Origin: Liolophura sinensis
Lineage: Eukaryota; Mollusca; Polyplacophora; Chitonida; Chitonidae
Direction of reading: 5' to 3'
DNA length: 64,000 nucleotides
Assembly: GCF_032854445.1 (NCBI RefSeq)
Contig: NC_088300.1
Coordinates: forward strand, 1,736,001 to 1,800,000
The notes under the pieces are model-generated. The model was not told where the DNA came from and did no database searches. It worked only from the letters and a program-made list of their open reading frames with translations. The translations under genes were made by a program, and so were the position numbers. Positions 13,688 through 45,730 of this stretch are shown here, piece after piece; the first letter of the stretch is position 1, and every line of letters starts with the position of its first letter.

Positions 13688-13792
13688 ATGTCGTTATCTG
13701 AAGGAAAGACACATCGCTGTATCCAGTGCGGTAGACCAGCGCAAGAACTGTACCACGACTACCAAGCCGATGTCATTAAAATTGCCCACTGT
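13688..13792 (+). CDS. ARV1: ARV1 exon 1: N-terminal zinc-binding half-site
   Basis: ARV1 is an ER membrane protein involved in sterol movement and GPI-anchor synthesis. This exon gives residues 1-35. It contains the first CxxC pair (C11, C14 in RCIQCG) and the conserved ELYHDYQADVIKIAHC block of the ARV1 homology domain. C35 opens the second zinc pair, which exon 2 completes at C38. The donor is TGT|GTAAGTAT, phase 0. ATG 13688 is the first in-frame ATG. The protein starts only 10 residues before the first Cys, so it lacks the longer N-terminal extension of human ARV1. Confidence 0.9.
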
Positions 13793-16732
13793 GTAAGTAT
13801 TGTTCTCAAAAGCACAACAACAACAACTTGGATGGTAGTTGCAGAATGTAACTCTGTATCGAGCAACACGCAGTGTTGGGAGAGTTACGGGGAGAAACTC
13901 GTTCTAATGTGCATCTTCACACGCACATTAAATCTTCCCTAGCGTAAATCGATGTCAACCGATATGCTTCCATAATCAACTAACCTGTTCTGAGTCTCAC
14001 CAAACCAAAAACGATGAATGACAACTGCACGAATGTTGTTAATTTCCCAATACCTTCCTATGTTATCTTTTACCGCGTCATCTGCTTGATGCTGCCTTGT
14101 ATAAGAGAAGTGCCCAGTTGTTTGCAGTCTCGAATACTGGGCATGCGGACTGTCATAGCCACAGCACGTACCTATATGGTAAAACGTACACTGTCTCTCA
14201 CGTAGGCCTTCATGTGCCCTGCTTTTTTTTTTCTTTTTTTTTTTTGCTTACGAAAGCCTTAGACTAGTTTAGCATGAGCTGTAAATATCAGAATTGATGG
14301 CATTGCAAATCTTGTCTGCTTCACTGTAAGGGTGAGAAATATTTGGATACAACATAATCATGGCTACTAGTCAGTGTACAGTTACTGTGACTTTGCAACC
14401 ACTGTAGCGTGCATGCCATTGAGGAGTCTGAAACATTGAAACTTAGGAATCTGTTAATATTGAAACTGAGGAATCTGTTAACACTGAAAGAGTACTCACA
14501 GCTGCATAAGGTTGAAACTGAGGAATCTGCTAACACTGAAAGAGTACTTACAGCTGCACAAGGTGGAAGTTGAGAAATCTGTTAACACTGGAAGAGTACT
14601 TACAGCTGCGCAAGGTTGACATTGAGGAATCTGTTAAAACTGAAAGAGTACTCACAGGTGCACAAGGTTGAAATTGAGGAACCTGCTAACACTGAAAGAG
14701 TACTTACAGCTGCACTAGGTTGAAATTGAGGAATCTTTTAACACTGAAAGGGTACTAGGAGGTGCACAAGGTTGAAACTGAGGAATCTGCTAACACTGAA
14801 AGAGTACTCACAGCTGCACAAGGTTGAAACTGAGGAATCTGCTAACACTGAAAGAGTACTCACAGCTGCACAAGGTTGAAACTGAGGAATCTGCTAACAC
14901 TGAAAGAGTACTCACAGCTGGCCAATCATCAGCATTCTCTTTGGTCTCATGAATTGACTACTTGAGGCTTAAACAAAGCAGATTTAATTTACAGAAGATA
15001 GGCCGTTAATATGATTTTACCAAAAGTGAACCTTAAAGCTAAACCACTAAAAATATGGTTCCTAAAGTAGTTTTCCCAATAGATTTAGTAAAAGCTCTTC
15101 TCAGATTGGCCACAAAATAAGTGTGCATAATGTATAAACCAAAATGTTTCAGTTTAACTCTTTAAATTGCTTCAAAGTCCGATTTATTGCATTAGTGTCT
15201 TGTCTATCCACTATAAGAAGCCCACTGACAATCGAGAGCTGATATGTATTAATTTTATGTCACAGCCACTTTCAAGGATAGTGATTGGCCGAATTCATAA
15301 GGGCTTCAACCACGTGGCTATTCTTACTGAATTGCCCTTCAATGCCATGAGTGATGAATTCCATCTTTTTCGCTTTTCAAATCTTTATAGAATTTTAAAA
15401 ATATTTTTCTTTGGTGCTTGTGTCCTATTTCCTTTTTTTCTATGTATGTATAGTTGCAAACTTTATGCTCACTTTAAGCTAAGAAAGTTTTTCTGTTTTA
15501 ACAGAAGTTTAACTCCCCTGTTCTAACAACCTAGGTCAAGTACTGGTTACTGCCATCACTCAACTTGCCGCTGTTTTATCAACCCAGATACTCTTTAGAC
15601 ATGGGTGCTAAAGTTTGAACAGGTACGGAGAATCTGATCGCTTGAGAATTCTCCTGTCAGAAGCATTACTGTGCTATGAAACCACTTGCTAGGAGAGTGT
15701 TTCTCTTTTACGCAGTTAGGGAATCCCTTCTAGGTTTGACACATGTGAAGAATATGAAGGCAAGGGTGAACATGATGGGAAACACAACCATGACAACCCC
15801 ACGAAATGTAATTGAGACAGTTTTTCCTTCTTCAGGTAGGGAATAGTTTTGAAAGTGAGGGATTTTCCACATCCTATTGGCCAATACTGCAATTTTATCC
15901 AAACACGCTTTAAGGCAAATCTGCCTGTTTGGGTTGAAGGAAATTAAATTCTGTGTTTCTGACTCCCTTAGAGCATGAAAGACTTTTATGTTTAGGCCAA
16001 ATGTTAGGTCATGAGTGCAGGAACCTGGTAATGATGATAGTACTACATGTATCATTACCGGTGCTGTATGCCCGTGTCTGTGGGGGATTCCCCAAGGCCT
16101 TGATCCATGAATAGATGACCTGTTTGCGAAAATGAGGCTGTCATGATTTAAAAAGAGATTTGCTAGCAGCCTATAAGAAATCTGCCTCGGAAGCAATGGG
16201 GGTGATGTTTACTTGACCCTATATGTCACTCGAGTCAAGCGTCTCTAATTCTGTCACATGAATAGTTTCAGTGACATCCAAATCTGCAAAAATCACGAAA
16301 TCACCCATTCAGTCCCATATTTTTTTTTTCTCATCTCTTGCTTTTGTGAAGAACTATCATTAATCTTAATTTGGTTGTGTGACCAGTGAAATGCAGTTAT
16401 TATTTTTAGTACTCAGAAATGTCTTTCCTGACATGTACTCCTCATTCATTCCCTGTGTTCTAATTGGTACTCGAAGTACATGTTGGTAATATTAGTCTAG
16501 AAGAGTCAGGTGTGTTCAAGAAATTTTTGGTCTGGCTATAACAACATCATATATTCCCCAAAGTCCATGCAGATCCATTTTGTAAGTCATGTAAATGTTT
16601 ATCGACAAATGCACATATATAGTGATTTATGAAGACGGAAAGTATGGACCATATTACAACATGTCCTGCAATTCCAACATGACCTACTTGTTAACATTTC
16701 TCTCCCCTTCGTATTCTGAATTGACTTTTTAG
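13793..16732 (+). other. ARV1 intron 1
   Basis: A GT-AG intron of 2,940 bp. It contains the 52-bp minisatellite at 14421-14920. The remaining sequence is AT-rich. A 162-codon minus-strand open frame (15708-16196) with one hydrophobic segment near its C-terminus resembles no known protein and is probably chance. Confidence 0.8.
14421..14920. repeat. 52-bp minisatellite in ARV1 intron 1, about 9-10 copies
   Basis: The unit contains TTGAAACTGAGGAATCTG, AACACTGAAAGAGTACT and CACAGCTGCACAAGG. Copies at the left end are more divergent and partly truncated; the last three are nearly identical, so the right side was homogenised most recently. Confidence 0.93.
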
Positions 16733-16852
16733 GAGCATTGCCAAGGTGTTGTGGATAAATACATAGAGTTTGATCCTGTTGTTATCTTGCTGGATGCATT
16801 CTTGCTGAAGAGGCAAGCTTTCCGACATGTTCTTTATAACACAGATATACAG
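16733..16852 (+). CDS. ARV1: ARV1 exon 2
   Basis: Forty codons, phase 0 at both ends, between TTTTTAG| and CAG|GTAAGTGC. The exon starts EHC, completing the second CxxC (C35, C38), and continues [20 protein letters not shown] and [11 protein letters not shown]. This is the strongest ARV1 signature: D-K-Y-I-E-x-D-P, a hydrophobic segment, then an R-H-x-L-x-N-T block. The first membrane-associated segment begins here. Confidence 0.92.
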
Positions 16853-17374
16853 GTAAGTGCAATCAAGGGAGGCAATGTAGTCAAGACCTGGTAATCAAAA
16901 TTGTCTCCCTTTATTCCATCAAATAATGAGTTGGGATTTATGTATTATTGGTGATTGTCATTAACTGGTACAGAGTTTTGTGTTTTATAGTTGTTAATTA
17001 TAGGGATTAGGCTGTGGTTGAATGGTTAAGGCGCTTTACTCCTTTCAATCCATAGGACACATGAGGTGCAGGTTCAAAACCTGCCCTGGACAGGGCCCCG
17101 CTCGTAGACACCCCCTGCTCTTAGACGCCCAACTAGTACTTCGCTCATTCTTAACATTTGTTGAAGACCACTTGTCTTCCACCAATATTACATGCATGCA
17201 TGTACATCATATGTGGCAAAGTTTGTCAGTATTTTGCCAAAGGTTAGTGGTCACCTATAAAACCAACTGCTAACGTATAAGTGAAAACTTCTTCAATATG
17301 GTGTCAAACATCAATTAGAAAAATAAATGCATTTTTTAATCAGCGCTGCATTGCTACTATTTCCCTCTTGTCAG
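16853..17374 (+). other. ARV1 intron 2
   Basis: A short GT-AG intron of 522 bp, more than half of which is a SINE-like insertion (17007-17327). Confidence 0.8.
17007..17327 (+). mobile_element. Diverged tRNA-derived SINE in ARV1 intron 2
   Basis: A tRNA-like head is followed by a perfect B-box (GGTTCAAAACCTG, 17071-17083). The tail ATGGTGTCAAACATCAATTA plus AAATAAAT resembles a degraded family B 3' end. The intermediate sequence has drifted and no target-site duplication was found, so the insertion is old. Confidence 0.6.
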
Positions 17375-17531
17375 TCCCACTGGAAGTTGACCCTCGTGTT
17401 CTTGTTATGTGATGCATACACCAAGCTATTCAGGAGCAAGGGAGCTGTCAGTGAAAAACTCAAGCCAGATTATGTCTTTTATTCTGCTCTGGAATGGGAC
17501 TTATATGTGATGTTCTTCATAGCCACAGCTG
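17375..17531 (+). CDS. ARV1: ARV1 exon 3
   Basis: The exon lies between CTTGTCAG| and GCTG|GTAAGCAT, phase 0 in and phase 1 out. It encodes 52 full codons: the transmembrane segment KLTLVFLLCDAYTKLF, a short hydrophilic stretch, then LEWDLYVMFFIATA. The E-W-D motif and the following aromatic-rich helix match the equivalent region of animal ARV1. The acceptor has a good pyrimidine tract (TTTCCCTCTTGTCAG). Confidence 0.9.
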
Positions 17532-17544
17532 GTAAGCATTACCT

Positions 17545-20110
17545 TGTAGGATTGTCGTACAGTGAGTACAGGATGCGTTATCCTGTAGGATTGCTGTATG
17601 ATTGTTATATTTCTAACAAAATTATAATCCTGCATTATTGCAATGATAGGAGATTTAGGATTACCCTAATCTTATCAAGTGTGGTAGTTATTTGTTATCA
17701 ATATTGGATGGCTATACACATGTAAAGTGTGTTAGATGGGTGTCCTAGGATTGCTCCACTTATGTAAAGTGTGTTAGATAGGTGTCCTAGGATTGCTCCA
17801 CTTATGTAAAGTGTGTTAGATAGGTGTCCTAGGATTGCTACAGCTATGTGAAGTGTGGTAGATAGGTGTCCAAGGATTGCTACATTTATGTAAAGTGTGT
17901 TAGATACATGTTACAGGATTGTTCCACTTATGTAAAGTTTGTTAGATAGGTGTCCTAGGATTGCTACAGTTATGTAAAGTGTGTTAGATAGGTGTGCCGT
18001 AGGATTGCTACAGTTATGTAAAGTGTGGTAGATAGGTGTCCAAGGATTGCTACATTTATGTAAAGTGTGTTAGATACATGTTACAGGATTGTTCCACTTA
18101 TGTAAAGTTTGTTAGATAGGTGTCCTAGGATTGCTACAGTTATGTAAAGTGTGTTAGATAGGTGTGCCGTAGGATTGCTACAGTTATGTAAAGTGTGATA
18201 GATAGGTGTCCTAGGATTGCTCCACTTATGTAAAGTGTGTTAGATAGGTGTCCTAGGATTGCTACAGTTATGTAAAGTGTGTTAGATAGGTGTCCTAGGA
18301 TTGCTCCACTTATGTAAAGTGTGTTAGATAGGTGTCCTAGGATTGCTACAGTTATGTAAAGTGTGGTAGATAGGTGTTCTAGGATTGCTCCACTTATGCA
18401 AAGTATGTTAGATAGGTGTCCTAGGATTGCTCCACTTATGTAAAGTGTGTTAGATACATGTTACAGGATTGTTCCACTTATGGAAAGTGTGTTGGATAGG
18501 TGTTCTAGGATTACCCCTTTTATGTAAAGTGTGGTAGATAGGTGTCCTAGGATTGCTACAGTTATGTAAAGTGTGTTAGGTGTTCTAGGATTGCTCCACT
18601 TCTGTAAAGTGTGTTGGATATTTGTTCTAGGATTGCTCCACTTCGGTAACGTGCATTATATAGGTGTTCTAGGATTGCTCCACTTCTGTATAGTGCATTA
18701 GATAGGTGTTCTAGGATTGCTTCACTTATGTAAAGTGCATTAGATAGGTGTTCTAGGAATGGTTCACTTATGTGTGTTAGGTGTTATAGGATTTGCTCCG
18801 CTTGTGTAAAGTGCATTAGGTAGGTGACCTAGGATTGCTCCACTTCTGTAAAGTGTGTTAGATAAATGTTCTAGGATTGCTCCACTTATGTAAAATACAT
18901 TAGATAGGTGTTCTATGATTGCTCCACTTATGTAAAGTGTCTTAGATAGGTGTTCTAGGATTGTTCCAGTAAAGTGCATTGGATAGGTGTTCTAGGATTG
19001 GTTCACTTATGTAAAGTGTGTTGGGTGCTCTAGGATTGGTCCACTTATGTAAAACTGTGTTAGGTGTTCTAGGATTGCTCCACTTATGTAAGGTGCATTA
19101 GATAGGTTTTCTAGGATTGCTCCACTTCTGTAAAGTGCATTAGATAGGTGATCTAGGATTGCTCCACTTCTGTAAAGTGCAGTAGATAGGTGATCTAGGA
19201 TTCCTCCGCTTATGTAAAGTGCATTGGATAGGTGTTCTAGGATTGCTTCACTTATGTAAAGTGCATTAGATAGGTTTTCTAGGATTGCTCCACTTATGTA
19301 AAGTGTGTTAGATAGGTGATCTAGGATTGCTCCACTTATGTAAAGTGTGTTAGATAGGTGTTACAGGATTGTTCCAGTTATGTAAAGTGTGTTAGATAGG
19401 TGTTACAGGATTGTTCTAGTTATGTAAAGTGTGTTAGATAGGTGTTCTAGGATTGGTTCACTTATGCAAACTGTGTTAGGTGTTCTAGGATTGCTCCACT
19501 TATGTAAGGTGCATTAGATAGGTGATCTAGGATTGCTCCACTTCTGTAAAGTGCAGTAGATAGGTGATCTAGGATTGGTTCACATATGTAAAGTGGGTTA
19601 GGTGTTCTAGGATTGCTCCACTTATGTAAAGTGTCTTAGATAGGTGTTACAGGATTGTTCCAGTTATGTAAAGTGTGTTAGGTGTTCTAGGATTGCTCCA
19701 GTTATGTAAAGTGTGTTAGATAGGTGTTCTAGGATTGGTTCACGTATGTAAAGTGTGTTAGGTCCTCTAGGATTGCTCCACTTATGTAAAGTGTGTTAGA
19801 TAGGTGTTCTAGGATTGCTCCACTTATGTAAAATACATTAGATAGGTGTTCTAGGATTGCCCCACTTCTGTAAAGTGTGTTAGATAGGTGTTACAGGATT
19901 GTTCCAGTTATGTAAAGTGTGTTAGATAGGTGTTCTAGGATTGGTTCACATATGTAAAGTGTGTTAGGTGTTCTAGGATTGCTCCATTTATGTAAAGTGC
20001 ATTAGATAGGTGTTCTAGGATTGGTTCACTTACATGTATGTAAAGTGTGTTAGGTGTTCTAGGATTGCTTCACGTATGTAAAGTGCATTAGATAGGTTTT
20101 GCCAGGTAGG
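17545..20110. repeat. 42-bp minisatellite A in ARV1 intron 3, about 55-60 copies
   Basis: The unit reads roughly TATGTAAAGTGTGTTAGATA then GGTGTTCTAGGATTGCTCCACT. Shorter variants lack the AGATAG step. Substitution diversity is much higher than in the 64-bp array, so this array is older. The first units, from 17545, are highly degenerate. Confidence 0.95.
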
Positions 20111-20133
20111 GCTATTCAGCATCTGTAAAGTTG

Positions 20134-20606
20134 CTTGACAGTGTATAGTGTGGAATTGTTCTTCACCAGTGCCATGTGTTGGACAGATGTTGGTGTGTAG
20201 GATTGTTCTACACCTATGCAGTGTGCTGGACAGGTATTGGTATGTAGGATTGTTCACACCTGTGCAGTGTGTTGGACAGGTATTGGTATGTAGGATTGTT
20301 CACACCTGTGCAGTGTGTTAGACAGGTATTGATATGTAGGATTGTTCCACACCTGTGCAGTGTGTTGGACAGATATTGGTGTGTAGGATTGTTCACACCA
20401 ATGCAGTGTGTTGGACAGGTATTGGTATGTAGGATTGTTCTTCACAAGTGCAGTGTGTTGGACAGATATTGGTGTGTAGGATTGTTCTACACCTATGCAG
20501 TGTGTTGGACAGATATTGGTGTGTAGGATTGTTCGCACCTGTGCAGTGTGTTGGACAGGTATTGGTATGTAGGATTTTTCTACACCTATGCAGTGTTTTA
20601 AGTAGG
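20134..20606. repeat. About 46-bp minisatellite B in ARV1 intron 3, about 10 copies
   Basis: The unit carries GCAGTGTGTTGGACAGGTAT, TGGTATGTAGGATTGTTC and ACACCTGTG. It keeps the GTGTT...GATAGGT...TAGGATTG order of family A with insertions, so it appears to be a derivative of A. Confidence 0.92.
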
Positions 20607-20635
20607 TGTTATCATGAAACATTCTTCTACCCCTC

Positions 20636-21455
20636 TAAAGTTGGTAGGTGTTGTTATATAGTATTGCTGTAGAAGCTTTAAAGTTGATAGGTGTTATCAT
20701 ATAGCGTTGCCCTGGAAGCTCTAAAGTTGATAGGTGTTATCATATAGTGTGGCTCTAAAAGCTCTAAAGTTGATAGGTTATCATATAGTGTTGCTCCAGA
20801 AGCTCTAATGTTGATAGGTGCTATCAAATAGCATTGCTCTAGAAGTTCTAAAGTTGATAGGTTATCATATAGTGTTGCTCTAGAAGCTCTAAAGTTGATA
20901 GGTTATTATATAGTGTAGCTCCAGAAGCTCTAAAGTTGATAGGTGTTATCAAATAGCATTGCTGTAGAAACTCTAAAGTTGATAGGTGCTATCAAATAGC
21001 ATTGTTCTAGAAGTTCTAAAGCTGATAGGTTATCATATAGTGTTGCTCTAGAAGGTCTAAAGTTGATAGGTGTTATCATATTGTACTCCTCTAGAAGCTC
21101 TAAAGTTGATAGGTTATCATATAATGTTGCTCTAGAAGCTCTAAAATTGATAGGTGTTATCATATAGTACTCCTCTAGAAGTTCTAAAGTTGATAGGTGC
21201 TATCAAATAGTATTGTTCTAGAAGTTCTAAAGCTGATAGGTTATCATATAGTGTTGCTCTAGAAGCTCTAAAGTTGATAGGTGTTATCATATTGTACTCC
21301 TCTAGAAGCTCTAAAATTGATAGGTGTTATCATATAGTACTCCTCTAGAAGTTCTAAAGTTGATAGGTGCTATCAAATAGCATTGCTCTAGAAGCTCTAA
21401 AGTTGATAGGTGCTATCAAGTAGCATTGCTCTAAAAGCTCTAAAGTTGGTAAGTG
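20636..21455. repeat. 43-bp minisatellite C in ARV1 intron 3, about 19 copies
   Basis: The unit contains AAGTTGATAGGTGTTATCAT, ATAGTGTTGC and TCTAGAAGCTCTA. It shares GATAGGTGTT and a TCTAG step with family A. A degenerate tail with TGTAGGAT steps extends to about 21565. Confidence 0.92.
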
Positions 21456-21920
21456 TCATGATATAGTATTGTTGTACACCTACAAGGTGGAAGAGACAAA
21501 TGCTATCCTGTAGGATTTCTTTATACATGTAAAGTTCAGTTAAGTAGGTGTTATACTGTAGGATATGCTGTTCAACGCAGTGGTTTTGGTTGGTTGTGAA
21601 ATATAATTTTCAAAGTGTGTTTGACAAGAAGGATTTCAGGTGCAAACCAGTAAAAAACATCTGGCCTAAATCAGTAGTTCAGTATGAATCTTTCACTCAT
21701 TAAATTGTTCAGTTTCAACTGTTTCTTGTTCTATGCCATGTAAAGGCCAATAAAAGTATTTGTCATGGCTTCTCTGTAAATATGGTATTAAAACTATATC
21801 TCAGTCTATGGTTGTTTTGCCATAATTACTATTACAGAGTTTGGCAGATATTGAGTTTTTAACAAGTGCATACTGTCACTGCTTTGGTGTTCTTGTTTTT
21901 TGTTCTCTTTTTTTATCCAG

Positions 21921-22002
21921 AAATGACCATCTGCGTAGTAACAATGTATGCCTTAGTCTGCCTTGTGTCAAAGCTGTTAAAGCATTCCACTGTATCATTC
22001 AG
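21921..22002 (+). CDS. ARV1: ARV1 exon 4
   Basis: The exon follows a long pyrimidine tract (CTCTTTTTTTATCCAG|) and ends ATTCAG|GTAAGTAT; it is entered in phase 1 and left in phase 2. With the split codons it reads E-MTICVVTMYALVCLVSKLL then KHSTVSF-R, a hydrophobic segment equivalent to the transmembrane helix after the EWD region. Another acceptor at 21847 would also fit phase 1, but it forces a frame that cannot join exon 5 as ARV1. Only the 21921 start keeps the family alignment through to GKLLVVPAILW. Confidence 0.86.
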
Positions 22003-22929
22003 GTAAGTATTTATATCAGCAGATTTCAGATTTGCCCAATTTGTTTTTGTTTTACATAAAAAATTGAGCCTAAATTGGGCTAAGTAGAGGGATTTCCACC
22101 TGAATACTATTCTATGAGTGAGATTTAGTTATTTTGCTTGGTGACATTACTCCAGACATTTTCTGGTGTGACTTTGCGTGGAAAACCTCTATCTTATTTT
22201 GTGATTTTATGGCTGGAAAACATATTTTGTTATTTAGTAATTTGTTGTGTGACTTTGTGCCTGGAAAACATGTGTAGTATTTTGTGTGTGACTTTGTGCC
22301 TGGAAAACCTGTATAGTAATTTGTTGTGTGACTTTGTGCCTGGAAAACCTGTATAGTAATTTGTTGTGTGACTTTGTGCCTGGAAAACCTGTGTAGTATT
22401 TTGTTGTGTGACTTTGTGCCTGGAAAACCTGTATAGTAATTTGTTGTGCGACTTTGTGCCTGGAAAACCTGTGTAGTATTTTGTGTGTGACTTTGTGCCT
22501 GGAAAACCTGTATAGTAATTTGTTGTGTGACTTTGTGCCTGGAAAACCTGTATAGTAATTTGTTGTGTGACTTTGTGCCTGGAAAACCTGTGTAGTATTT
22601 TGTTGTGTGACTTTGTGCCCGGAAAACCTCTATAGTATTTTGTTATGTGACTTTTTGTGGAAAACGTCTATAGTATTTTGTTGTGTGACTTTGTGCCTAT
22701 AAAACCAGTATAGTATTTTGTTGTGTGACTTTGTGTCTTTCTGAAGAGCCAAAAATCTATGTAACTATTGCTGTTGATGTTTGTAAGTAGATGCTATTTG
22801 TATTTTGAACATGCTGTGTATCTTCCAGTCCACTCTAACTGGTTTGATGTAAACATACATATGTAGTGTTTGTGAATAATGTTGATATTATTTGTGAGAC
22901 TTTAATACATTTGGGTCGTGTTTTAACAG
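22003..22929 (+). other. ARV1 intron 4
   Basis: GT-AG intron of 927 bp; about 60% of it is the 40-bp array at 22166-22735. Confidence 0.82.
22166..22735. repeat. 40-bp minisatellite in ARV1 intron 4, about 14-15 copies
   Basis: The unit reads GTGTGACTTTGTGCCTGGAA then AACCTGTATAGTAATTTGTT. One- or two-base length variants (TTTGTGTGTG against TTTGTTGTGTG) recur. The edge copies are diverged and the central ones nearly identical. Confidence 0.94.
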
Positions 22930-23072
22930 AGAAGTGCTCAGAGGAACGCTGCTGTCAAACTTTGGGAAGTTGCTGGTGGTGCCTGCCATTTTGTGGGGAC
23001 AGAGTGACAGTCTTCTCTATCTGTGGCTGACTAAGACATTTGTGCTGGGAGCTAATGTCCAGGCAGTGAGAG
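22930..23072 (+). CDS. ARV1: ARV1 exon 5
   Basis: The exon lies between TTTTAACAG| and GTGAGAG|GTAACTC; it is entered in phase 2 and left in phase 1. It encodes EVLRGTLLSNFGKLLVVPAI then LW and a TKTFVLGANVQAVR block. These match the G-K-L-L-x-x-P-A-x-x-W segment and the helix ending in Q-A-x-R of animal ARV1. The predicted protein to this point has about 202 residues; the family C-terminus (some 40-50 residues) is still missing. Reading past the donor gives only 11 more codons before a stop, so a shortened terminal form is possible but less likely than one more exon. Confidence 0.9.
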
Positions 23073-23334
23073 GTAACTCAATCTACCCAGTTGTTACAGC
23101 CCATTGAAAATCTTTGTTTTTCTTTGTGGTTCCTTACTTGATTATGATATTTCATACAAGGAGATAGGCAAATGTCAGCATTGGCACTGGCCAGTGAAAT
23201 GACCAAGATAATTTTGAAGAGAGCAAAAATGAACGGCTCTAAATTAGAACTACTAAAATTGATGACGTATTAAGATTGATTAATTACTTGTCCACTTGAA
23301 ATGCTATGAAACAATATAACAGCCTGTACGTGGA

Positions 23335-23434
23335 ACAGTCCGCCAGCAGTTTCCTCCCACCATAGTGCTTGCCACCACCCTATAAGTGAAATAGTCCCTG
23401 AATGCAGCGGCATAAAACACCAATCAAATAAATA
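23335..23434 (+). mobile_element. 5'-truncated, diverged SINE (family B)
   Basis: It holds TTTCCTCCCACCATAGTGCT, a TATAAGTGAAATA step and the tail GGCATAAAACACCAATCAAA followed by TAAATAAA. It is more diverged than the 61018 copy and shows no clear target-site duplication. Confidence 0.8.
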
Positions 23435-23595
23435 AACATGTATGCAACAGCCAGACAAGACTTGTATGCACATAAAATGTGGAAAAATGACAGTGTGGCT
23501 GATACCCAGATAAATGGAGTGTTTGGTGACAGTGAATTGGCTGTGACAAATAAGCACCTTTCATGGATTTTAGTGATTCATGGGTATGTATTATC

Positions 23596-23800
23596 TAATG
23601 ATACAGAGGCAAGATGGGAAATTCAAACCAGGAACAGCCCAGGGAAACCCATGACCATCTGCAGGTTGCAGGCATTACCACATACAACCATAGAGAATGC
23701 CAGCACTGGCTGGACTTGAAATCAGAGCGACCACATTATATGAGAGGCTTCTTGGTCACTGTGCTGCACTATCATGCTAACAACTTGGTCACAGAGTACC
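23596..23800 (-). mobile_element. Old SINE fragment, minus strand
   Basis: The reverse complement contains an AACCTGCAGATGGTCATGGG block and a B-box-like GATTTCAAGTCCA. The order and spacing match the head and body of family B, but the tail is missing. Confidence 0.5.
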
Positions 23801-24774: not shown

Positions 24775-25842
24775 TGCACTACATATACGTCTAGAGGTTA
24801 GGATTGTACTGCATATATGTTCAGTGGCAAGCTTTGTACTGCATATATGTGCAGTGGCAAGCTTTGTACTGCATATATGTGTAGTGGCAAGCATTGTACT
24901 GCATATATGTTCAGTGGCAAGCTTTGTACTGCATATATGTTCAGTGGCAAGCTTTGTACTGCATATATGTGTAGTGGCAAGCATTGTACTGCATATATGA
25001 GCAGTGGCAAGCATTGTACTGCATATATGTGCAGTGGCAAGCATTGTTTTGCATATATGTTCAATGGCAAGCATTGTACTGCATATATGTGTAGTGGCAA
25101 GCATTGTACTGCATATATATGCAGTGGCAAGCATTGTACTGCATATATGTTCAGTGGCAAGCATTGTACTGCATATATGTGCAGTGGCAAGCATTGTAAT
25201 GTATATATGTGTAGTGGCAAGCATTGTACTGCACATATGTGCAGTGGCAAGCATTGTACTGCATATATGTTCAGGGGCAAGCATTGTACTGCATATATGT
25301 TCAGTGGCAAGCATTGCACTGCATATATGTGCAGTGGCAAGCATTGTACTGCATACATGTGCAGTGGCAAGCATTGTACTGCATATACGCACAGTGGCAA
25401 GCATTGTACTGCATACATGTGCAGAGGCAAGCATTGTACTGCATACACGCACAGTGGCAAGCATTGTACTGAATATACATGTATTGGCAAGCATTGTACT
25501 GCATACATGTGCAGTGGCAAGCATTGTACTGCGGCAAGCATTGTACTGCATATATGTGTAGTGGCAAGCATTGTACTGCATATATATGCAGTGGCAAACA
25601 TTGTACTGAATATGCATGTATTGGCAGTCATTGTACTGCATATATGTGTATTGGCAGTCATTGTACTGCATATATGTGTATTGGCAGTCATTGTACTGCA
25701 TATATGTGTATTGGCAGTCATTGTACTGCATATATGTGTATTGGCAGTCATTGTACTGCATATATGTGTATTGGCAGTCATTGTACTGCATATATGTGTA
25801 TTGGCGGTCATTGTACTGCATATACATGTATTGGCAGTCATT
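24775..25842. repeat. 30-bp minisatellite, about 35 copies
   Basis: The unit reads GCATATATGTGCAGTGGCAA then GCATTGTACT. Because 30 is a multiple of 3 and the unit lacks stops in several frames, long open frames of 10-residue periodicity appear on both strands (359, 347 and 342 codons). The right-hand seven copies are a distinct subfamily with GTATTGGCAGTCATTG. Each unit contains the self-complementary CATATATG and a GTAC step. One partial copy lies near 25530. A coding role is unlikely. Confidence 0.96.
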
Positions 25843-26269: not shown

Positions 26270-26660
26270 CCTTGGTTCTCTGGTTTGCTCTTTACAGTTT
26301 GATCTCTTCCAGCCATTCTGCTCTCCCTTAGTCAGTCTTGTCTCCCCTAGCCACTGGTTTCCCCCAGGTATCAAGCTCTCCTCCAGGCAGTTTTTTTTCC
26401 TCCAGACACTCCAACTACCTCCAGGCATTGGGTCTCTATACAGCTTGGTCTCCTCCAGATACTAAGGTCACCTCCAGGCACTCTGGTCTCCTCCTGGCAG
26501 TCTTTTTCTCCTCCAGGTACTCACTCTCCTCCAGTCACTTGGATTCACTCTGGGCACTATGAACTCTCTCCAGGCACTCTGAACTCTCTCCAGGCATCCA
26601 GTTTTCCTCCACTCTGGTCTCCTCCAGACACTCATTTTTTTTCCTCCAGACACTCCAAGC
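26270..26660 (+). repeat. Degenerate pyrimidine-rich repeat, (CTCCTCCAGGCACT)-like
   Basis: About 13 loose repetitions of TCTCCTCCAGNCACT with period near 20-30 bp. On the ARV1 sense strand each step looks like a 3' splice site (pyrimidine tract plus CCAG). It is too degenerate for a fixed unit length. Confidence 0.75.
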
Positions 26661-32098: not shown

Positions 32099-32750
32099 CT
32101 GAAATGTTCTTTAATTTGCAACAGTTCAGGTTTCTGATGTTTCTCAACTGTGTCTGGCAGGAGTCATTTTATTTTAAAATAAATCATAATAGATAAGCAT
32201 TTCTGCTGAAAACAACTAGTATAGGTTGTGGATAATAGAAATGCTGATGTGCTCTTCATTATAGTTGCAATTTGATAATCCTGGAAACACCTTGACCTTG
32301 GAGCGAAAATAGAGCACACACTATTTGACAGTTTTGATTACGTGTAAGGCCTGCACATTGCTGTTAGAACACGCTGCAGGTATGCGCCATACAAATCTGC
32401 TCGCATTGCAGAAGTGCACTTTCCCGTGCCAGTTTGATCTTGACCTTGATACGTGTGTCACAGGAGCTTCATATCTTCCGGCGCCTATTCTTAGACAGGT
32501 GGAACAAGAGTGCAGCACGCCCTGCCCTTGCAGCGCTGATCAGTATCACTGCCCTCCATGTGGGTTGCACAATCATGAGCAGCCAACCCCTTGCCAAGCG
32601 GACATTCCTCGGCATTTTTGCAGCTTTCAATGTCAGCCAAACTACCCCATGCTAAGAACTTTTAGGTACTTTTCCAGTATAGTTTTCTGAATACTTGACT
32701 ATGTAGCCAATTTGTGTGTCAAAAATTGTCAATTTTATCAATGAAAATGA
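32099..32750. other. Unique DNA with a GC-rich open segment
   Basis: 32,368-32,655 (+) is open for 95 codons, ending in a stop, and is markedly GC-richer than its flanks. A CACAG at 32462-32466 could act as acceptor for a final exon of about 62 codons with one hydrophobic helix (PALAALISITALHVGCTIM). A second + frame across the same bases is also open and Cys-rich. I do not recognise either product. Confidence 0.35.
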
Positions 32751-32942
32751 CAAATTTTCATTGTGTTTTGTATATTGAAAGTTATCATAACCTGACATAG
32801 ACATGAACATATTTTTTTCACCACTTTTCTGCTGAGTAAATGAGTTATGTGAGTAATTTGTACATAACGAGGCATGCTAGGCATGAGAAGCTGTTCTTGA
32901 CAATGCATGTGTGGAATTTTGTGGTTAGTTTAGACAAGATTT
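32751..32942 (+). repeat. 192-bp exact direct repeat, copy 1
   Basis: Base for base the same as 33576-33767, in the same orientation and 825 bp apart. The first copy runs from CAAATTTTCATTG to GACAAGATTT. It has no terminal inverted repeats, and copy 2 is interrupted from its surroundings by different flanks. Confidence 0.95.
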
Positions 32943-33575: not shown

Positions 33576-33767
33576 CAAATTTTCATTGTGTTTTGTATAT
33601 TGAAAGTTATCATAACCTGACATAGACATGAACATATTTTTTTCACCACTTTTCTGCTGAGTAAATGAGTTATGTGAGTAATTTGTACATAACGAGGCAT
33701 GCTAGGCATGAGAAGCTGTTCTTGACAATGCATGTGTGGAATTTTGTGGTTAGTTTAGACAAGATTT
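33576..33767 (+). repeat. 192-bp exact direct repeat, copy 2
   Basis: Second copy of 32751-32942 with no difference seen by eye. Either a very recent segmental duplication or an assembly artefact. Confidence 0.95.
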
Positions 33768-33820
33768 GAAGAGAATCGATTTCAAACTTAACTTTGCGCA
33801 TATGAAATAAGAACTTGTAT

Positions 33821-34054
33821 TACCTGTAATAGTTTGATGGTACTGCCTGAATATGTGACCTCCAACATGGCCGCCACAGCCAGTCTGGACACAGTTCTTA
33901 CCTGTAATAGTTTGATGGTACTGCCTGAATATGTGACCTTCGAAATGGCCGCCACAGCCATTGTGGGCACAGTTCTTACCTGTAATAGTTTGATGGTACT
34001 GCCTGAATATGTGACCTTTGAAATGGTCGCCACAGCCAGTCTGGGCACACTTTT
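33821..34054. repeat. 78-bp tandem repeat, 3 copies
   Basis: The unit begins TACCTGTAATAGTTTGATGG and contains ATGTGACC followed by an ATGGCCGCCACAGCC block resembling a YY1 site. The 78-bp period keeps one frame open on each strand with a 26-residue repeat; no reason to think it is translated. Confidence 0.92.
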
Positions 34055-37026
34055 GTTAGTGGTGTATGTGATGTGGTACAGTCTCAGTCACTGAGGAACA
34101 CATTTGATATAAATTTTTGTCTTGCCATGCCACATTGTACATGTTAAAATTGCTAACAGAAGATGTGATAAAGCACATTTGAAAAAAGTAAGACTGCACT
34201 TTAATTTTTAAAATATATATACGTGTGTAGTTAAAAGTGTTTCTTTTTGGGTGGTGTGGAGAAGAGATATAGGGCAAAATCCCCTGATAAAAACCTCCTA
34301 TAGTTCTTGCTATTCCTGCTGCAGTTTTAAACCTTCAGTCTCATGGGGTATTGATATATACAAATACAGTTACAAATTTTCTGTCTGATAAGTTCTGCGG
34401 GTTGATTTATTGACACATGCTGTTTATTGGAGACAAGCTTGTGAGCTATTAAACATATATGCACATACTTATCAATACATGTGTATGTCAGTGCAGATGC
34501 AAGTGTACTGAGCATATGCGTAAGAGCACACGAGCTGTAAAATTGTTTGTTCTCGATTATTTTTACATGTGTATTTGAGATTTATCAGTTTTTTGTTTAC
34601 ACGTGCGGCAGAGTCTTATCATTGTGTTGGCAGACTTGTAGACAGCTGGTGGTCTAATGTGCAATCATATGATGTAAAACATGAAGTACCAAAACCAGCC
34701 AGCAAGCTTGCCACTTATGTAATAACTGCAGATTGACATTTCCTTAGGCCGTTACTTTTTTAATCTTTGGTTTTAAATTTGTGTACATTCTTTTGGATGT
34801 AGCTTTAGAATGTTATACGATTCACATAGTTGAAAATATATGTTTTCATTTATGTTTTTTTTTTTTTTCTCGCTTTTTTTCTGAATGTCGTCTTTCACCA
34901 TATACTCATTTTTCTGCCAAAGATTTTTGAGTGAGCCTGTTGAGGTGGGGAACATCAGGGAAAATTATTCAGTTTAAGAACAAACTACATACATGCATTT
35001 TTTGCATTCATATTTACTTTCTAGTAAGTAACAAAGAAGTTATGTTCATATCTCCCCATTACTGTGAGAGGTAGTCAACACCTGTTAGTTATCTTGAAGC
35101 AAGTAATTATACAATTCAAGAAAGAAAAAATTGTCTGACAAAATTACATGAACCGATGGAGGAATTCTTGCAGGCCTCATGATGTAGTCTTCACACTTAG
35201 TCATTGGAGAAGATCTTGGGAGTGGGTCATTGCTGTGCTCCTCAAACTATTTATAGCCAATTTGATTCTGATAAGTGGTATTTACTGGTAAATAAAGATG
35301 AAGGCAACCCATACAAATGCCGTGTGGTCTTCTCCCAGCCCGAGGGAGTGAATCTCTCTATTAATTTATATGCAGAAGTTGGATAAGAAAAAATGAATGT
35401 GGAAAAGTGCATTATTACTTGTACAAGTGGAACCCAAGAAGACTGAAGATGTGCCAAAAGTTTAGCGATGCGCTATTTTATACACTTTTATTTGCCAGAC
35501 ATAATGGGTATACACTGTACACTGTACATACATAAAGTTTGTTTGTTGTCATAAACAAAATACATGTTTATATCTGTACAAATATATATATATACTGGTA
35601 TGACAAGAAAGTCTGTTGTAGATGGTCAGTTAATATTTTACTTGAGTTCTTGGTCACAGTGGAATAATGTAATTGGTCGGAGTGTAATTGGTCACAGTGG
35701 AATAATGACAGTTGGGAAAAGTCCTGATAGAGTCACGTTATCTTTGTGTGTTGCAGAAAAGTGCATACCAAACACCTTTTTCTAACACAGTTTGTCTTCA
35801 AATATTTATATTTAAGGCTGCAATATGCAAAGGCACATTCTTAATATGAGATACAAAAATTCTCCATGTTTGATCTCCTTTGACCTATTGTGAGTGCATT
35901 GTATCACTTCCTTGTCATTTTTCACAGTGTGTTGGTGAAATAATATGATCATTAATTTGCTGTTAAACATCATTATTAAATTTCATTTTAGTGTGGTGTG
36001 GAAATTTGTGATAAATAATTACTTTGAAAATTACAGCTTTTAATTTTTTTTTTTTTTTTTTTTTTGAAATATGGATCAAGGGGCATAACTCTGACAGACA
36101 TGTCTTAAATAGACCTTAATCGATCCAACATCACAAGGAATGTCATCAATTTTTTATTGGTTTTCTACCTGATTGATTTGGTTGCTCATCTGTGTACCGG
36201 CCCGAGGCAGCATTTATTGTAACTGACTGGTTATTTTACACATAATGACACATGAACAGTGAGGTGTCTGGGCTTAGAAATTAGTCTTCCATATCACCTC
36301 CGTAGGAGCCTTAATGAACATTTCTGTAAGAAACAAAGCAGAAGTGTTGTCCTCACAAAAAAAAACATGGTTTCTGCCATATCTAATATAAATACGAATA
36401 AGTGTTTATACAGTGATGTACATAATCAGTGGTCTAGTGAGTGACATCCAGGTATGAATAACATCCAGATATGAATGTTAAGATTCCTGGTTAACATATA
36501 GAAAAAAGTGACACTGTAATAAGCTATTTGACATACCTGGGAGGTATCATTTATTTGAAACATATCATTGTCACATCTCAGCGTAGTGCTCCTTCCATTT
36601 AGCTATATGCTGTAAGCTCTTTTGTGAAACATTAATGAATATGAACCTTCAGTTGTCAGGTAGAACTTTTGATTTCGTAATGTTAACAATGTATTTCATG
36701 TTTCTTAATACTCATCACACTTTTACTGAATGCTGAATCTTTACTGGGTCAGGACAGCGGAAATACCTTTACAGGAGACCATTACTTTGCGGCCCCTGCA
36801 GTTACATGTACAAGTTCAAATCCTGCTACTGCAAGCATATGGGCAGGTTGTCAAAATTTGTCATTTACACAGGTAAAATAAGTAAATACTGACTGCACTA
36901 TACTTCACCTGTGTCCAGATTTTGTTGACTTCTGTATTATTACGCTATGCACTGCTGTAAGCAGCATCATTACTTGGAAGAGCTTCATTCCACTCAGTGT
37001 TCAAACTGCAGGCAATTATGTAAGAC
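34055..37026. other. Unassigned AT-rich DNA
   Basis: No exon recognised. A 60-codon open frame at 35204-35386 is unremarkable. A small direct repeat of GGTCACAGTGGAATAATG lies at 35,649-35,709 and a pure T-run at about 36,040-36,065. Confidence 0.45.
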
Positions 37027-40000
37027 AGAATAACTGTTGTATTACTGATGCATCTTTCTGTCTATATTTGTCTACAAAATAACTGTCGTATTACTGACGC
37101 ATCTTTCGGTCTATACTTGTCTACAAAATAACTGTTGTATTACTGACACATCTTTCTGTCTATACTTGTCTACAAAATAACTGTCGTATTACTGACGCAT
37201 CTTACCGTCCATACTTGTCTACAAAATCACTGTCGTATTACTGACTCATCTTTCTGTCTATACTTGTCTACAATTGTCTATGCTTGTCTACAAAATAAAT
37301 GTTGTATTACTGACACATCTTTCTGTCTATACTTGTCTACAAAATAACTGTAGTATTACTGACACATCTTTCTGTCTATACTTGTCTACAAAATAACTCT
37401 CGTATTACTGACGCATCTTACCGTCCATACTTGTCTACAAAATCACTGTCGTATTACTGACGCATCTTTCTGTCTATACTTGTCTACAAAATAATTGTCG
37501 TATTACTGACGCATCTTACCGTCCATACTTGTCTACAAAATCACTGTCGTATTACTGACTCATCTTTCTGTCTATACTTGTCTACAAAATAACTGTCGTA
37601 TTACTGACGCATCTTTCTGTCTATACTTGTCTACAAAATAACTGTCGTATTACTGACCCATCTTTTCGTCCATACTTGTCTACAAAATAACTGTCGTATT
37701 ACTGATGCGTCTTTCCGTCCATACTTGTCTACAAAATAACTGTCGTATTACTGACACATCTTTCTGTCTATACTTGTCTACAAAATAACTGTCATATTAC
37801 TGACGCATCTTTCTGTCTATACTTGTCTACAAAATAACTGTTGTATTACTGACCCATCTTTCCGTCCATACTTGTCTACAAAATAACTGTCGTATTACTG
37901 ACCCATCTTTCTGTCTATACTTGTCTACAAAATAACTGTCGTATTACTGACGCATCTTTCTGTCTATACTTGTCTACAAAATAACTGTCGTATTACTGAC
38001 GCATCTTACCGTCCATACTTGTCTACAAAATCACTGTCGTATTACTGACTCATCTTTCTGTCAATACTTGTCTACAAAATAACTGTAGTATTACTGACAC
38101 ATCTTTCTGTCTATACTTGTCTACAAAATAACTGTCGTATTACTGACGCATCTTTCTGTCTATACTTGTCTACAAAATCACTGTCGTATTACTGACGCAT
38201 CTTTCTGTCTATACTTGTCTACAAAATAACTGTCGTATTACTGACCCATCTTTCTGTCTATACTTGTCTACAAAATAACTGTCGTATTACTGACGCATCT
38301 TTCTGTCTATACTTGTCTACAAAATCACTGTCGTATTACTGACTCATCTTTCTGTCAATACTTGTCTACAAAATAACTGTCGTATTACTGACCCATCTTT
38401 CTGTCTATACTTGTCTACAAAATAACTGTCGTATTACTGACGCATCTTACCGTCCATACTTGTCTACAAAATCACTGTCGTATTACTGACTCATCTTTCT
38501 GTCAATACTTGTCTACAAACTAACTGTCGTATTACTGACGCATCTTTCTCTCTGTACTTGTCTACAAAATAACTCTCGTATTACTGATGCATCTTTCCGT
38601 CCATACTTGTCTACAAAATAACTGTCGTATTACTGACGCATCTTTCTGTCTATACTTGTCTACAAAATTAGTGTCGTATTACTGACGCATCTTTCCGTCC
38701 ATACTTGTCTACAAAATCACTGTCGTATTACTGATGCATCTTTCCGTCCATACTTGTCTACAAAATTAGTGTCGTATTACTGACGCATCTTTCTCTCTGT
38801 ACTTGTCTACAAAATCACTGTCGTATTACTCATGCATCTTTCCGTCCATACTTGTCTACAAAATTAGTGTCGTATTACTGACCCATCTTTCCGTCCATAC
38901 TTGTCTACAAAATCACTGTCATATTACTGATGCATCTTTCCGTCCATACTTGTCTACAAAATAACTGTCGTATTACTGACGCATCTTTCTCTCTGTACTT
39001 GTCTACAAAATAACTGTCGTATTACTCATGCATCTTTCCGTCCATACTTGTCTACAAAATAACTGTCGTATTACTGACGCATCTTTCTCTCTGTACTTGT
39101 CTACAAAATCACTGTCGTATTACTGATGCATCTTTCCGTCCATACTTGTCTGCAAAATTAGTGTCATATTACTGACACATCTTTCTCTCTGTACTTGTCT
39201 ACAAAATCACTGTCGTATTACTGATGCATCTTTCCGTCCATACTTGTCTACAAAATAACTGTCGTATTACTGACGCATCTTTCTGTCCATACTTGTCTAC
39301 AAAATAACTGTCGTATTACTGATGCATCTTTCCCTCCATACTTGTCTACAAAATAACTGTCGTATTACTGACACATCTTTCTCTCTGTACTTGTCTACAA
39401 AATTAGTGTCGTATTACTGACGCATCTTTCCGTCCATACTTGTCTACAAAATTAGTGTCGTATTACTGACGCATCTTTCTGTCTATACTTGTCTACAAAA
39501 TAACTGTCGTATTACTGACGCATCTTTCTGTCCATACTTATCTACAAAATCACTGTCGTATTACTGATGCATCTTTCCGTCCATACTTGTCTACAAAATT
39601 AGTGTCGTATTACTGACGCATCTTTCTCTCTGTACTTGTCTACAAAATTGGTGTCGTATTACTGACGCATCTTTCCGTCCATACTTGTCTACAAAATTAG
39701 TGTCGTATTACTGACGCATCTTTCTGTCTATACTTGTCTACAAAATTAGTGTCGTATTACTGACGCATCTTTCCGTCCATACTTGTCTACAAAATTAGTG
39801 TCGTATTACTGACGCATCTTTCTGTCTATACTTGTCTACAAAATTAGTGTCGTATTACTGACGCATCTTTCCGTCCATACTTGTCTACAAAATCACTGTC
39901 GTATTACTGACGCATCTTTCTCTCTGTACTTGTCTACAAAATCACTGTCGTAATACTGATGCATCTTTCCGTCCATACTTGTCTACAAAATTAGTGTCGT

Positions 40001-42079
40001 ATTACTGACGCATCTTTCTGTCTATACTTGTCTACAAAATTAGTGTCGTATTACTGATGCATCTTTCCGTCCATACTTGTCTACAAAATAACTGTCGTAT
40101 TACTGACGCATCTTTCTGTCTATACTTGTCTACAAAATAACTGTCGTATTACTGACGCATCTTTCTGTCTATACTTGTCTACAAAATCACTGTCGTATTA
40201 CTGACGCATCTTTCTGTCTATACTTGTCTACAAAATCACTGTCGTATTACTGACGCATCTTTCTGTCTATACTTGTCTACAAAATTACTGTCATATTACT
40301 GATGCATCTTACCGTCCATACTTGGCTACAAAATTAGTGTCGTATTACTGACACATCTTTCTCTCTGTACTTGTCTACAAAATTAGTGTCGTATTACTGA
40401 CCCATCTTACCGTCCATACTTGTCTACAAACTAACTGTCGTATTACTGACGCATCTTTCTGTCTATACTTGTCTACAAAATCACTGTCGTATTACTGACG
40501 CATCTTTCTGTCTATACTTGTCTACAAAATAACTGTCGTATTACTGACCCATCTTTCCGTCCATACTTGTCTACAAAATTAGTGTCGTATTACTGACACA
40601 TCTTTCTGTCTATACTTGTCTACAAAATAACTGTTGTATTACTGATGCATCTTACCGTCCGTACTTGTCTACAAAATTAGTGTCATATTACTGACTCATC
40701 TTTCTGTCCATACTTGTCTACAAAATTAGTGTCATATTACTGACACATCTTTCTGTCTATACTTGTCTACAAAATAACTGTTGTATTACTGATGCATCTT
40801 TCCGTCCATACTTGTCTACAAAATAACTGTCGTATTACTGACACATCTTTCTCTCTGTACTTGTCTACAAAATTAGTGTCGTATTACTGACCCATCTTAC
40901 CGTCCATACTTGTCTACAAACTAACTGTCGTATTACTGACGCATCTTTCTGTCTATACTTGTCTACAAAATCACTGTCGTATTACTGACGCATCTTTCTG
41001 TCTATACTTGTCTACAAAATAACTGTCGTATTACTGACCCATCTTTCCGTCCATACTTGTCTACAAAATTAGTGTCGTATTACTGACACATCTTTCTGTC
41101 TATACTTGTCTACAAAATTACTGTCGTATTACTGATGCATCTTTCCGTCCATACTTGTCTACAAAATAACTGTTGTATTACTGACACATCTTTCTGTCTA
41201 TACTTGTCTACAAAATTACTGTCGTATTACTGACGCATCTTTCCGTCCATACTTGTCTACAAAATTAGTGTCATATTACTGACTTATCTTTCTGTCCATA
41301 CTTGTCTACAAAATTAGTGTCATATTACTGACACATCTTTCTGTCTATGCTTGTCTACAAAATAACTGTCGTATTACTGATGCATCTTTCTCTCTGTACT
41401 TGTCTACAAAATAACTGTCGTATTACTGACGCATCTTTCTGTCTATACTTGTCTACAAAATTACTGTCGTATTACTGACGCATCTTTCTCTCTGTACTTG
41501 TCTACAAAATAACTGTCGTATTACTGATGCATCTCTCCGTCCATACTTGTCTACAAAATAACTGTCGTATTACTGACACATCTTTCTCTCTGTACTTGTC
41601 TACAAAATTAGTGTCGTATTACTGAGCCATCTTACCGTCCATACTTGTCTACAAAATCACTGTCGTATTACTGATGCATCTTACCGTCCATACTTGTCTA
41701 CAAAATAACTGTCATATTACTGACACATCTTTCTGTCTATACTTGTCTACAAAATAACTGTCGTATTACTGACGCATCTTACCGTCCATACTTGTCTACA
41801 AAATTAGTGTCGTATTACTGACCCATCTTTCTGTCTATACTTGTCTACAAAATCACTGTCGTATTACTGACGCATCTTTCTGTCTATACTTGTCTACAAA
41901 ATAACTGTCGTATTACTGACCCATCTTACCGTCCATACTTGTCTACAAAATCACTGTCGTATTACTGACGCATCTTTCTGTCTATACTTGTCTACAAAAT
42001 AACTGTCGTATTACTGACGCATCTTTCTGTCTATACTTGTCTACAAAATAACTGTTGTATTACTGATGCGTCTTTCCGT
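37027..42079. repeat. 49-bp minisatellite, about 103 copies (5 kb)
   Basis: The unit reads CTACAAAATAACTGTCGTAT, TACTGACGCATCTTTCTGTC, TATACTTGT. Variation sits at three sites. One is AAAATAACTG, AAAATCACTG or AAAATTAGTG. Another is GACGCATC, with GATGC, GACAC, GACCC or GACTC forms. The third is TTTCTGTCTATA, TTTCCGTCCATA, TTACCGTCCATA or TTTCTCTCTGTA. The variants recombine freely. TTAGTG and TCTCTGTA forms are absent from the first 1.5 kb. A block at about 40,340-40,626 is duplicated ten units (490 bp) downstream. No long open frame exists. Confidence 0.97.
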
Positions 42080-44004: not shown

Positions 44005-44371
44005 TTGTGTTACCAAGGAGTACATCAGATATCATTGTGTTACCAAGGAGTACATCAGGTATCATTGTGTTACCAAGGAGTACATCAGGTATCATTGTGT
44101 TACCAAGGAGTACATCAGGTATCATTGTATTACCAAGGAGTACATCAGATATCATTGTGTTACCAAGGAGTACATCAAATATCATTGTGTTACCAAGGAG
44201 TACATCAGGTGTCAATGTGTTACCAAGGAGTATATCAGCTATCATTGTGTTGCATCCTTGTGTTACCAAGGAGTACATCAGGTATTATTGTGTTACCAAG
44301 AAGTATATCAGGTACCATTGTGTTAACAAGGGGTACATCAGGTGTCATTGTGTTACCAAGGAGTTCATTAC
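44005..44371. repeat. 30-bp minisatellite, about 12 copies
   Basis: The unit reads TGTGTTACCAAGGAGTACAT then CAGGTATCAT. It is unrelated to the 30-bp array at 24.8 kb. The frame-preserving period gives 10-residue repeat open frames on both strands. Confidence 0.95.
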
Positions 44372-44870
44372 CAAGGCAGCCAGCCAGCCATCCAGCAACA
44401 TGGGACACATACCTTGCTGGCTAACACTCTGTTACTCGGCCAGCCAGCCAGCCCACCCACAACACAGGACACATACCATGCTGGCTAACACACTGTTGCT
44501 TGGCCAGCCAGCCAGCCAGCCTGCAACACGGGACACATACCATGCTGGCTAACACACTGTTACTCGGCCAGCCAGCCATCCTGCAACACGGGACACATAC
44601 CATGCGGCTAACACACTGTTGCACAGCTAGCCAGCCATCCCACAACATAGGACACATACCATGCTGGCTAACACACTGTTACTTGGCCAGCCAGCCATCC
44701 TGCAACAAGGGACACATACCATGCTGGCTAACACACTGTTACTCGGCCAGCCAGCCAGCCAGCCCGACGGCAACATGGGACACATACCATGCTGGCTAAC
44801 ACACAGTTACTCGGCCAGCCAGCCATCACGCAGCAAGGGACACATACCATGCTGGCTAACACAATGTTAG
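44372..44870. repeat. About 60-bp minisatellite abutting the previous array, about 8 copies
   Basis: The unit has (GCCA)2-4 followed by TCCTGCAACACGGGACACAT, ACCATGCTGGCTAACACACT and GTTACTCG. Copy length varies with the number of GCCA steps. It begins directly at the last TTACCAAGG of the neighbouring array, with no spacer. Confidence 0.93.
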
Positions 44871-45659: not shown

Positions 45660-45730
45660 ACTGGCCCAAACTGCTATAGCATTATCAGCTTTGGTTGACC
45701 AAGAGGTCACCGGTTCAAATCCACTTTGTG
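45660..45730 (+). mobile_element. Possible tRNA-like SINE head fragment
   Basis: A B-box (CCGGTTCAAATCC) is preceded by diverged head-like sequence, with no conserved body or tail. It may equally be a decayed tRNA pseudogene. Confidence 0.3.

Follow-up and report, generated by a model that had tools for sequence, protein, structure and literature searches.

The genome of the chiton Liolophura sinensis poses a question at the gene ARV1: why are some 31 kb of DNA, starting at the first exon of this gene, so densely filled with tandem repeats, and with repeats built from so many different units? The stretch analyzed here (the window) comprises 64,000 nucleotides, C6:1736001-1800000 in an assembly of 609,464,459 bp and 632 contigs that was first named Liolophura japonica and corrected to L. 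sinensis (PMC12441733). The interval in question occupies positions 13688-44870 of the window. An initial annotation attributed its arrays to a local process that generates tandem repeats. Our analysis argues that the ARV1 interval is a dense but not unique example within a wide background of minisatellites whose units appear to be private to their own loci.

Counting arrays found by Tandem Repeats Finder with a score of at least 200 and a period of at least 10, we identified 11 strong arrays in the interval, with units of 52, 42, 47, 43, 40, 30, 74, 78, 49, 30 and 60 bp. These cover 13,583 of 31,183 bases (43.6%; counted as 10 arrays in the coverage run, where the neighboring 30- and 60-bp arrays are taken as one), compared with 11.7% of positions 1-13687 and 1.9% of positions 44871-64000. 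Order-1 Markov simulations with the same dinucleotide make-up returned no arrays in ten of ten runs, and the interval arrays are therefore not due to chance. Every strong array named in the initial annotation was recovered where it had been placed. Its unit lengths also stand, except that a unit given as 46 bp measures 47 bp, and the CT-rich repeat that it mentioned is present but proves to be weak and degenerate. Both the unit lengths of the strong arrays (30–78 bp, within the minisatellite range of about 10–100 bp) and the array sizes (128–5052 bp across the wider region described below, set in other sequence, where minisatellites span about 0.1 kb to several kb) identify the interval arrays as minisatellites.

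The five exons found for the host gene, when joined, encode a protein that matches the Pfam Arv1 profile over positions 1-201 of 202 (E 2.8e-43), and on this protein match the gene is confirmed as ARV1. Three of the four mapped introns (1, 3 and 4) contain arrays, and intron 2 contains none. All five exons lie outside the arrays. A single frame-based search for the last exon gave no convincing candidate, and for this reason the arrays between 24.8 and 44.9 kb are to be taken as intronic or intergenic.

Most of the interval arrays are unrelated to one another. In intron 3, blastn links the 42-bp array to the 47-bp array (E 1.1e-12). The adjoining 43-bp array has no blastn match to either of them; its consensus aligns with the 42-bp unit at a score that none of 60 shuffles reached (z 5.2, among 120 pairs tested), a value only slightly above those of links that we rejected. 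In the rejected links the 60-bp unit, on the reverse strand, resembles the units of 30, 47 and 42 bp (z 4.8, 4.4 and 4.1 in the same set of shuffles and pairs); they have no blastn support and were not counted. The side-by-side 42-, 47- and 43-bp arrays may be one array that has since drifted apart. At the thresholds applied, blastn joins no other pair in the interval, with the two 30-bp blocks at 24.8 kb forming one family. These comparisons leave nine families in the interval, or ten when the 43-bp array is kept apart from its neighbors, slightly below the more than ten unrelated families originally proposed.

The units were searched against the whole genome with nine queries drawn from the 11 strong interval arrays, mostly from part of an array; the 64- and 87-bp arrays elsewhere in the window were left out. 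For eight of the nine queries all matches fall in or beside the query's own array. The ninth, from the 42-bp array, has besides its own matches a single one of 68% on contig C11, where another 42-bp array, built on a different consensus, is located. We read this as a chance match between two arrays of equal period. This result agrees with the proposal that the units arose independently in place rather than by spread of one satellite, and unit families dispersed elsewhere, which the initial annotation had named as evidence to the contrary, were not seen apart from this single match. Satellite DNA in the sense of one amplified family was likewise rejected, as the same unit does not recur at many places for the eight private queries.

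The same kind of array continues at high density well beyond the interval. We added 100 kb on each side of the window to obtain a 264-kb region, in which arrays cover 24.7% of the left 100 kb, 24.3% of the window and 16.9% of the right 100 kb. This region contains 67 arrays in 61 blastn groups, covering 57,103 of 264,000 bases (21.6%), with units of 13–147 bp (median 43) and a median of 12.5 copies. We also sampled 20 distant sites at round coordinates fixed before their sequence was seen, ten of 5 kb on C6 and ten of 0.8 kb on four other large contigs. Arrays are present at eight of the 20 (five of ten on C6 and three of ten on the other contigs), with a mean coverage over the pooled 58 kb of 13.6% (bootstrap 3.8–25.3%). 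A further twenty pieces of 500 bases were not pooled with these sites, since 18 come from the ends of contigs; four contain neither G nor C and open with N, one starts with telomere-type repeats, and one consists entirely of a 41-bp array. The region may well lie above the genome mean, and the array landscape is likely to be patchy, while a unique hotspot is not likely.

Taken together, we consider it likely that these are minisatellites arising in place in an unusually minisatellite-rich Liolophura genome and turning over by slippage, unequal exchange or repair copying, with ARV1 a dense locus and not a special generator. Dense private minisatellites are probably common in this genome. An array would begin as a short tandem duplication of single-copy sequence, made by slippage or template switching, and would soon reach several copies; slippage, unequal exchange or repair-associated copying would then turn it over while its copies diverge to roughly 80–91% identity. 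Transposon spread would have no part in the origin of the arrays.

Several features of internal structure bear on how the arrays grow. Tandem Repeats Finder reports higher-order periods of 93, 199, 128, 247 and 174 bp and partial-unit periods of 24 (52-bp array), 20 and 69 (49-bp), 17 and 47 (30-bp) and 121 (74-bp), which, with the linked 42- and 47-bp arrays, point to growth by copying. In four of 11 arrays tested, adjacent copies resemble each other more than they do after their order is permuted (30-bp z 4.7, 64-bp 3.0, 52-bp 2.4, 42-bp 2.0; the 74-bp array reaches 1.8), the pattern to expect where a neighbor serves as the template for each new copy. Variants shared between copies outnumber single ones in the 49-bp (20/14), 42-bp (31/24), 74-bp (24/16) and 43-bp (16/14) arrays, which indicates that some copies have been recopied or homogenized; no such excess is seen in the 30-bp array (12/13), nor in the short ones. 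Mean identity within arrays is 0.80–0.91 in 12 of the 13 window arrays and 0.98 in the 64-bp array at 1141, and from this spread the arrays may differ in age. Outside the arrays, a 192-bp segment is present in two copies, and the genome search found no copies beyond these two. By eye it has no clear target-site duplication or long terminal repeat ends. It appears to be a recent local copy with a spacer, for which template switching or repair copying would be a fitting mechanism. The coordinates of all features are collected in Table 1.

Table 1. Arrays, exons and other features of the window, with the whole-genome queries taken from the arrays. Positions are those of the window.
Feature	Positions	Strand	Context and evidence	Genome query and its matches
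52-bp array, 24-bp period at left edge	14420-14920		ARV1 intron 1; Tandem Repeats Finder	14460-14720: this array only
42-bp array, 57 copies	17720-20097		ARV1 intron 3; Tandem Repeats Finder	17762-18100: ten matches in this array; a further match (68%) on contig C11
47-bp array, 93-bp higher-order period	20155-20596		ARV1 intron 3; Tandem Repeats Finder	20155-21000 (with part of 43-bp array): here and in adjacent 42-bp array only
43-bp array	20633-21471		ARV1 intron 3; Tandem Repeats Finder	first part included in query 20155-21000
40-bp array, 199-bp higher-order period	22235-22735		ARV1 intron 4; Tandem Repeats Finder	22235-22475: in and beside this array only
30-bp array, two sub-blocks	24803-25842		Tandem Repeats Finder	24803-25000: in and beside this array only
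Weak degenerate 20-bp CT-rich repeat	26446-26633		Tandem Repeats Finder, 66% matches, score 102	
74-bp array, about 25 copies	30287-32107		Tandem Repeats Finder	30287-30583: this array only
78-bp array, 2.9 copies	33820-34049		Tandem Repeats Finder	query from this array: sole match is itself
49-bp array, about 102 copies	37025-42076		Tandem Repeats Finder	37275-37600: 21 of 21 matches within this array
30-bp array	44005-44368		Tandem Repeats Finder	44005-44869 (with 60-bp array): itself only
60-bp array, 128- and 247-bp higher-order periods	44379-44869		Tandem Repeats Finder	included in query 44005-44869
64-bp array outside interval, same kind, 25 copies, 98% identical	1141-2741		Tandem Repeats Finder; copy analysis	
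87-bp array outside interval, same kind	62901-63255		Tandem Repeats Finder	
192-bp segment, first copy	32751-32942	+	Self-blast; genome search	
192-bp segment, second copy, no difference from first, 825 bases apart	33576-33767	+	Self-blast; genome search	
ARV1 exon 1, ATG at 13688	13688-13792	+	Open reading frame matches Pfam Arv1, E 1.1e-5; joined-exon match	
ARV1 exon 2	16733-16852	+	AG/GT flanks; joined-exon Pfam match	
ARV1 exon 3	17375-17531	+	Joined-exon Pfam match	
ARV1 exon 4	21921-22002	+	Joined-exon Pfam match	
ARV1 exon 5, last found	22930-23072	+	Joined-exon Pfam match	
Open reading frame with InaF motif (TRP-interacting helix)	3328-3666		Pfam, E 5.4e-18	
tRNA-family match, upstream of ARV1	13170-13243		62.6 bits	
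Notch ligand exon	51824-52180		Pfam MNNL, E 5.3e-32	
Dispersed family resembling short interspersed elements (SINEs)	6694-6829, 9547-9671, 23347-23436, 23625-23758, 53683-53742, 61020-61156			

A number of observations weigh against this explanation. The genome mean is drawn from 58 kb and has a wide interval, and the genome search scores the best candidates only and skips very common words, so that the privacy of the units is unproven. Within the 264-kb region, stretches of 31 kb at least as densely covered as the ARV1 interval make up only 1.4% of all those of that length; the six 5-kb bins of the interval exceed the 39 flank bins (Mann-Whitney p 0.017) and also the ten C6 sites (p 0.032), although the interval was picked for its arrays. 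Five arrays show no clear neighbor effect (z -0.3 to 0.8), and in the 49-bp array adjacent copies are less alike than permuted ones at lag 1 (z -2.7) and more alike at lag 2 (z +2.8); this lag pattern and the five null arrays fit poorly with purely stepwise local slippage. Identity in the 49-bp array is also nearly flat, at 0.90–0.92 over lags 1–64. Finally, only eight of 50 arrays with units of 40–200 bp have fewer than 3.5 copies, where gradual birth should leave many. The flat identity and the scarcity of short arrays suggest fast growth once an array exists, or array-wide homogenization.

The alternatives that we weighed are mutually compatible, and the likelihoods given to them need not add up to one. 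The one that survives best is a regional effect, itself compatible with in-place origin, in which arrays are concentrated in certain large domains, such as those close to contig ends. C6 is 82.5 Mb long and the window lies between 1.74 and 1.80 Mb along it, in a region with the average coverage of 21.6% given above, and the C6 sites at 70, 78 and 81 Mb reach 39.5%, 28.9% and 56.5%, compared with 0–4.5% at the seven sites from 5 to 60 Mb. However, the sites at 5 and 10 Mb have no arrays above threshold, and the four other large contigs, thinly sampled, have arrays at one of five near-end sites and two of five interior sites. A bias toward chromosome ends, suggestive on C6 and absent on the other four contigs in this thin sample, was rejected. 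Gathering of arrays in large domains remains a tentative proposal, and on balance we doubt it.

Somewhat less probable is that each array was made in a one-step burst, by rolling circle or break-induced replication, with little stepwise growth. The small number of arrays below 3.5 copies and the flat identity of the 49-bp array are what such bursts would leave. However, the clear neighbor similarity of the 30-bp array and the excess of shared over single variants in the 49-, 42-, 74- and 43-bp arrays argue against it. The shortage of short arrays may also be overstated, as diverged short tandem duplications are under-detected: simulated two-copy tandems were found in 85–100% of cases at 0–5% divergence per copy and in 45–78% at 10%. 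We regard one-step bursts as rather unlikely and prefer in-place origin followed by rapid growth and continuing turnover.

A local hotspot at ARV1, whether through fork stalling, a germ-line break hotspot or open germ-line chromatin, would explain the excess of the interval bins over the flank bins and the rarity of windows that match its 43.6%. However, a 31-kb stretch of the 264-kb region that does not overlap the interval reaches 47.2%, the flanking 100-kb blocks are comparable to the window, and arrays recur at distant sites. The density of the interval does not stand far above that of its surroundings, even with its bins above those of the flanks, and the idea that this locus is special is not supported. 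Similar density elsewhere was the finding that the initial annotation had itself set against a local process, and the neighborhood provides it.

We also examined causes that could reside in sequence or chromatin. Among the 67 units no shared motif was found: the top 6-mer occurs 11 times, within the 5–95% range of maxima (8–13) of a dinucleotide null, while CACAC and CTATAC exceed raw genomic controls. The units have a higher GC content than non-array stretches (0.435 compared with 0.387) and are richer in TG+CA and poorer in AA+TT. Hairpins show no folding-energy excess in the units (p 0.36), and GC skew shows no excess over all units (z 0.48), although it is strong in the 42- and 49-bp arrays. 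Germ-line chromatin was assessed through CpG depletion of non-array sequence, taken as a proxy for gene bodies methylated in the germ line. The correlation with array density over the 264 kb (rho 0.20, 0.25 and 0.28 for 2-, 5- and 10-kb bins; p 0.03, 0.07 and 0.16) is weakly positive and not negative, with no rise in the expected direction, and lends no support to open germ-line chromatin. Considering the selection of the interval for its arrays as well, a generator specific to ARV1 is very unlikely.

The ratio of observed to expected CpG varies widely over this contig, from 0.19 to 0.82 along the 5-kb stretches of C6 between 5 and 81 Mb. It is 0.19–0.27 in the three array-rich stretches at 70–81 Mb. 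In the 264-kb region non-array CpG does not fall as array density rises. Within the window the ratio is 0.92 at 51000-54000, around the Notch ligand exon, compared with 0.49 for the window as a whole.

Tandem repeats carried by transposable elements are known in other genomes, one paper reportedly deals with SINE-derived satellites in reptiles, and SINE-like elements occur in the window; but with eight of nine queries private, and with dispersed matches in 12 of 100 array flanks and, over ten draws of controls, in 10–22 of 100 segments (the sequence searched being only the 264 kb and another 50 kb), it is highly improbable that Helitron-like elements or SINE-derived tandem repeats carried or seeded the arrays. 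In that search dispersed repeats are no more common beside the arrays than in the controls, and on this ground we rejected transposon-borne arrays.

The arrays resemble human-type minisatellites, or variable number tandem repeats, in unit length, divergence between copies, locus-specific units, and higher-order and variant-unit structure. Human minisatellites have a GC-rich core motif and cluster in subtelomeric regions. In contrast, the chiton arrays occur at a density of about one per 4 kb over 264 kb, share no 6-mer beyond the dinucleotide null and, as far as a thin sample shows, are not consistently biased toward ends.

The closest parallel we found in the literature comes from amphioxus, another marine invertebrate with minisatellite-like arrays in genes at several loci. 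Its Adh3 and globin genes are reported to carry minisatellites, including 'mirages' that span exon-intron boundaries, with units of 10–72 bp in Adh3 and 150–160 bp in the globins, copy identity of 81–100% in one case, and somatic instability (PMC3087553). The mirages differ from the arrays described here in crossing exon-intron borders, which no array does at the five ARV1 exons found. Beyond the window, two arrays 12 kb apart share the same 59-bp unit (C6:1864897-1866280 and C6:1877004-1879093) and are 96% identical over 1385 bases. This unit holds GTAAGT, which resembles a splice donor, and could be a mirage-type repeat of an exon border.

A high tandem-repeat share is also described for a second chiton, Acanthochiton rubrolineatus, where Tandem Repeats Finder gave 9.21%, a figure that in the available portion of the source is not split by unit length or privacy (PMC11545220). 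For Liolophura, the genome paper tabulates 0.08% as 'simple repeat, microsatellite, RNA' and 14.04% as unclassified, and its main text contains no word beginning 'satellite' or 'tandem' (PMC11068029). Among the literature matches listed, none is by its title a study of tandem repeats in Liolophura.

No functional consequence for ARV1 itself follows from these arrays, and the genome-wide question behind them is more interesting than the locus. If about a seventh of the genome (13.6%, with the bootstrap range of 3.8–25.3%) consists of private minisatellites, the published repeat annotation does not list them as such. If the density of the 264-kb region holds widely, the genome offers very many independent arrays in which the birth of minisatellites can be studied. 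A bolder proposal, which we put forward with considerable reserve as it is probably wrong, is that birth and growth of private arrays are unusually active in chitons. Nearly every stretch of single-copy DNA could then serve as a seed, a seed would quickly exceed about five copies so that short arrays stay scarce, and something like a tenth of the genome would be made up of locus-specific arrays, unrelated to one another and numbering in the thousands. If true, such active birth and growth across chitons would suggest that replication or break repair is in a state particular to this lineage.

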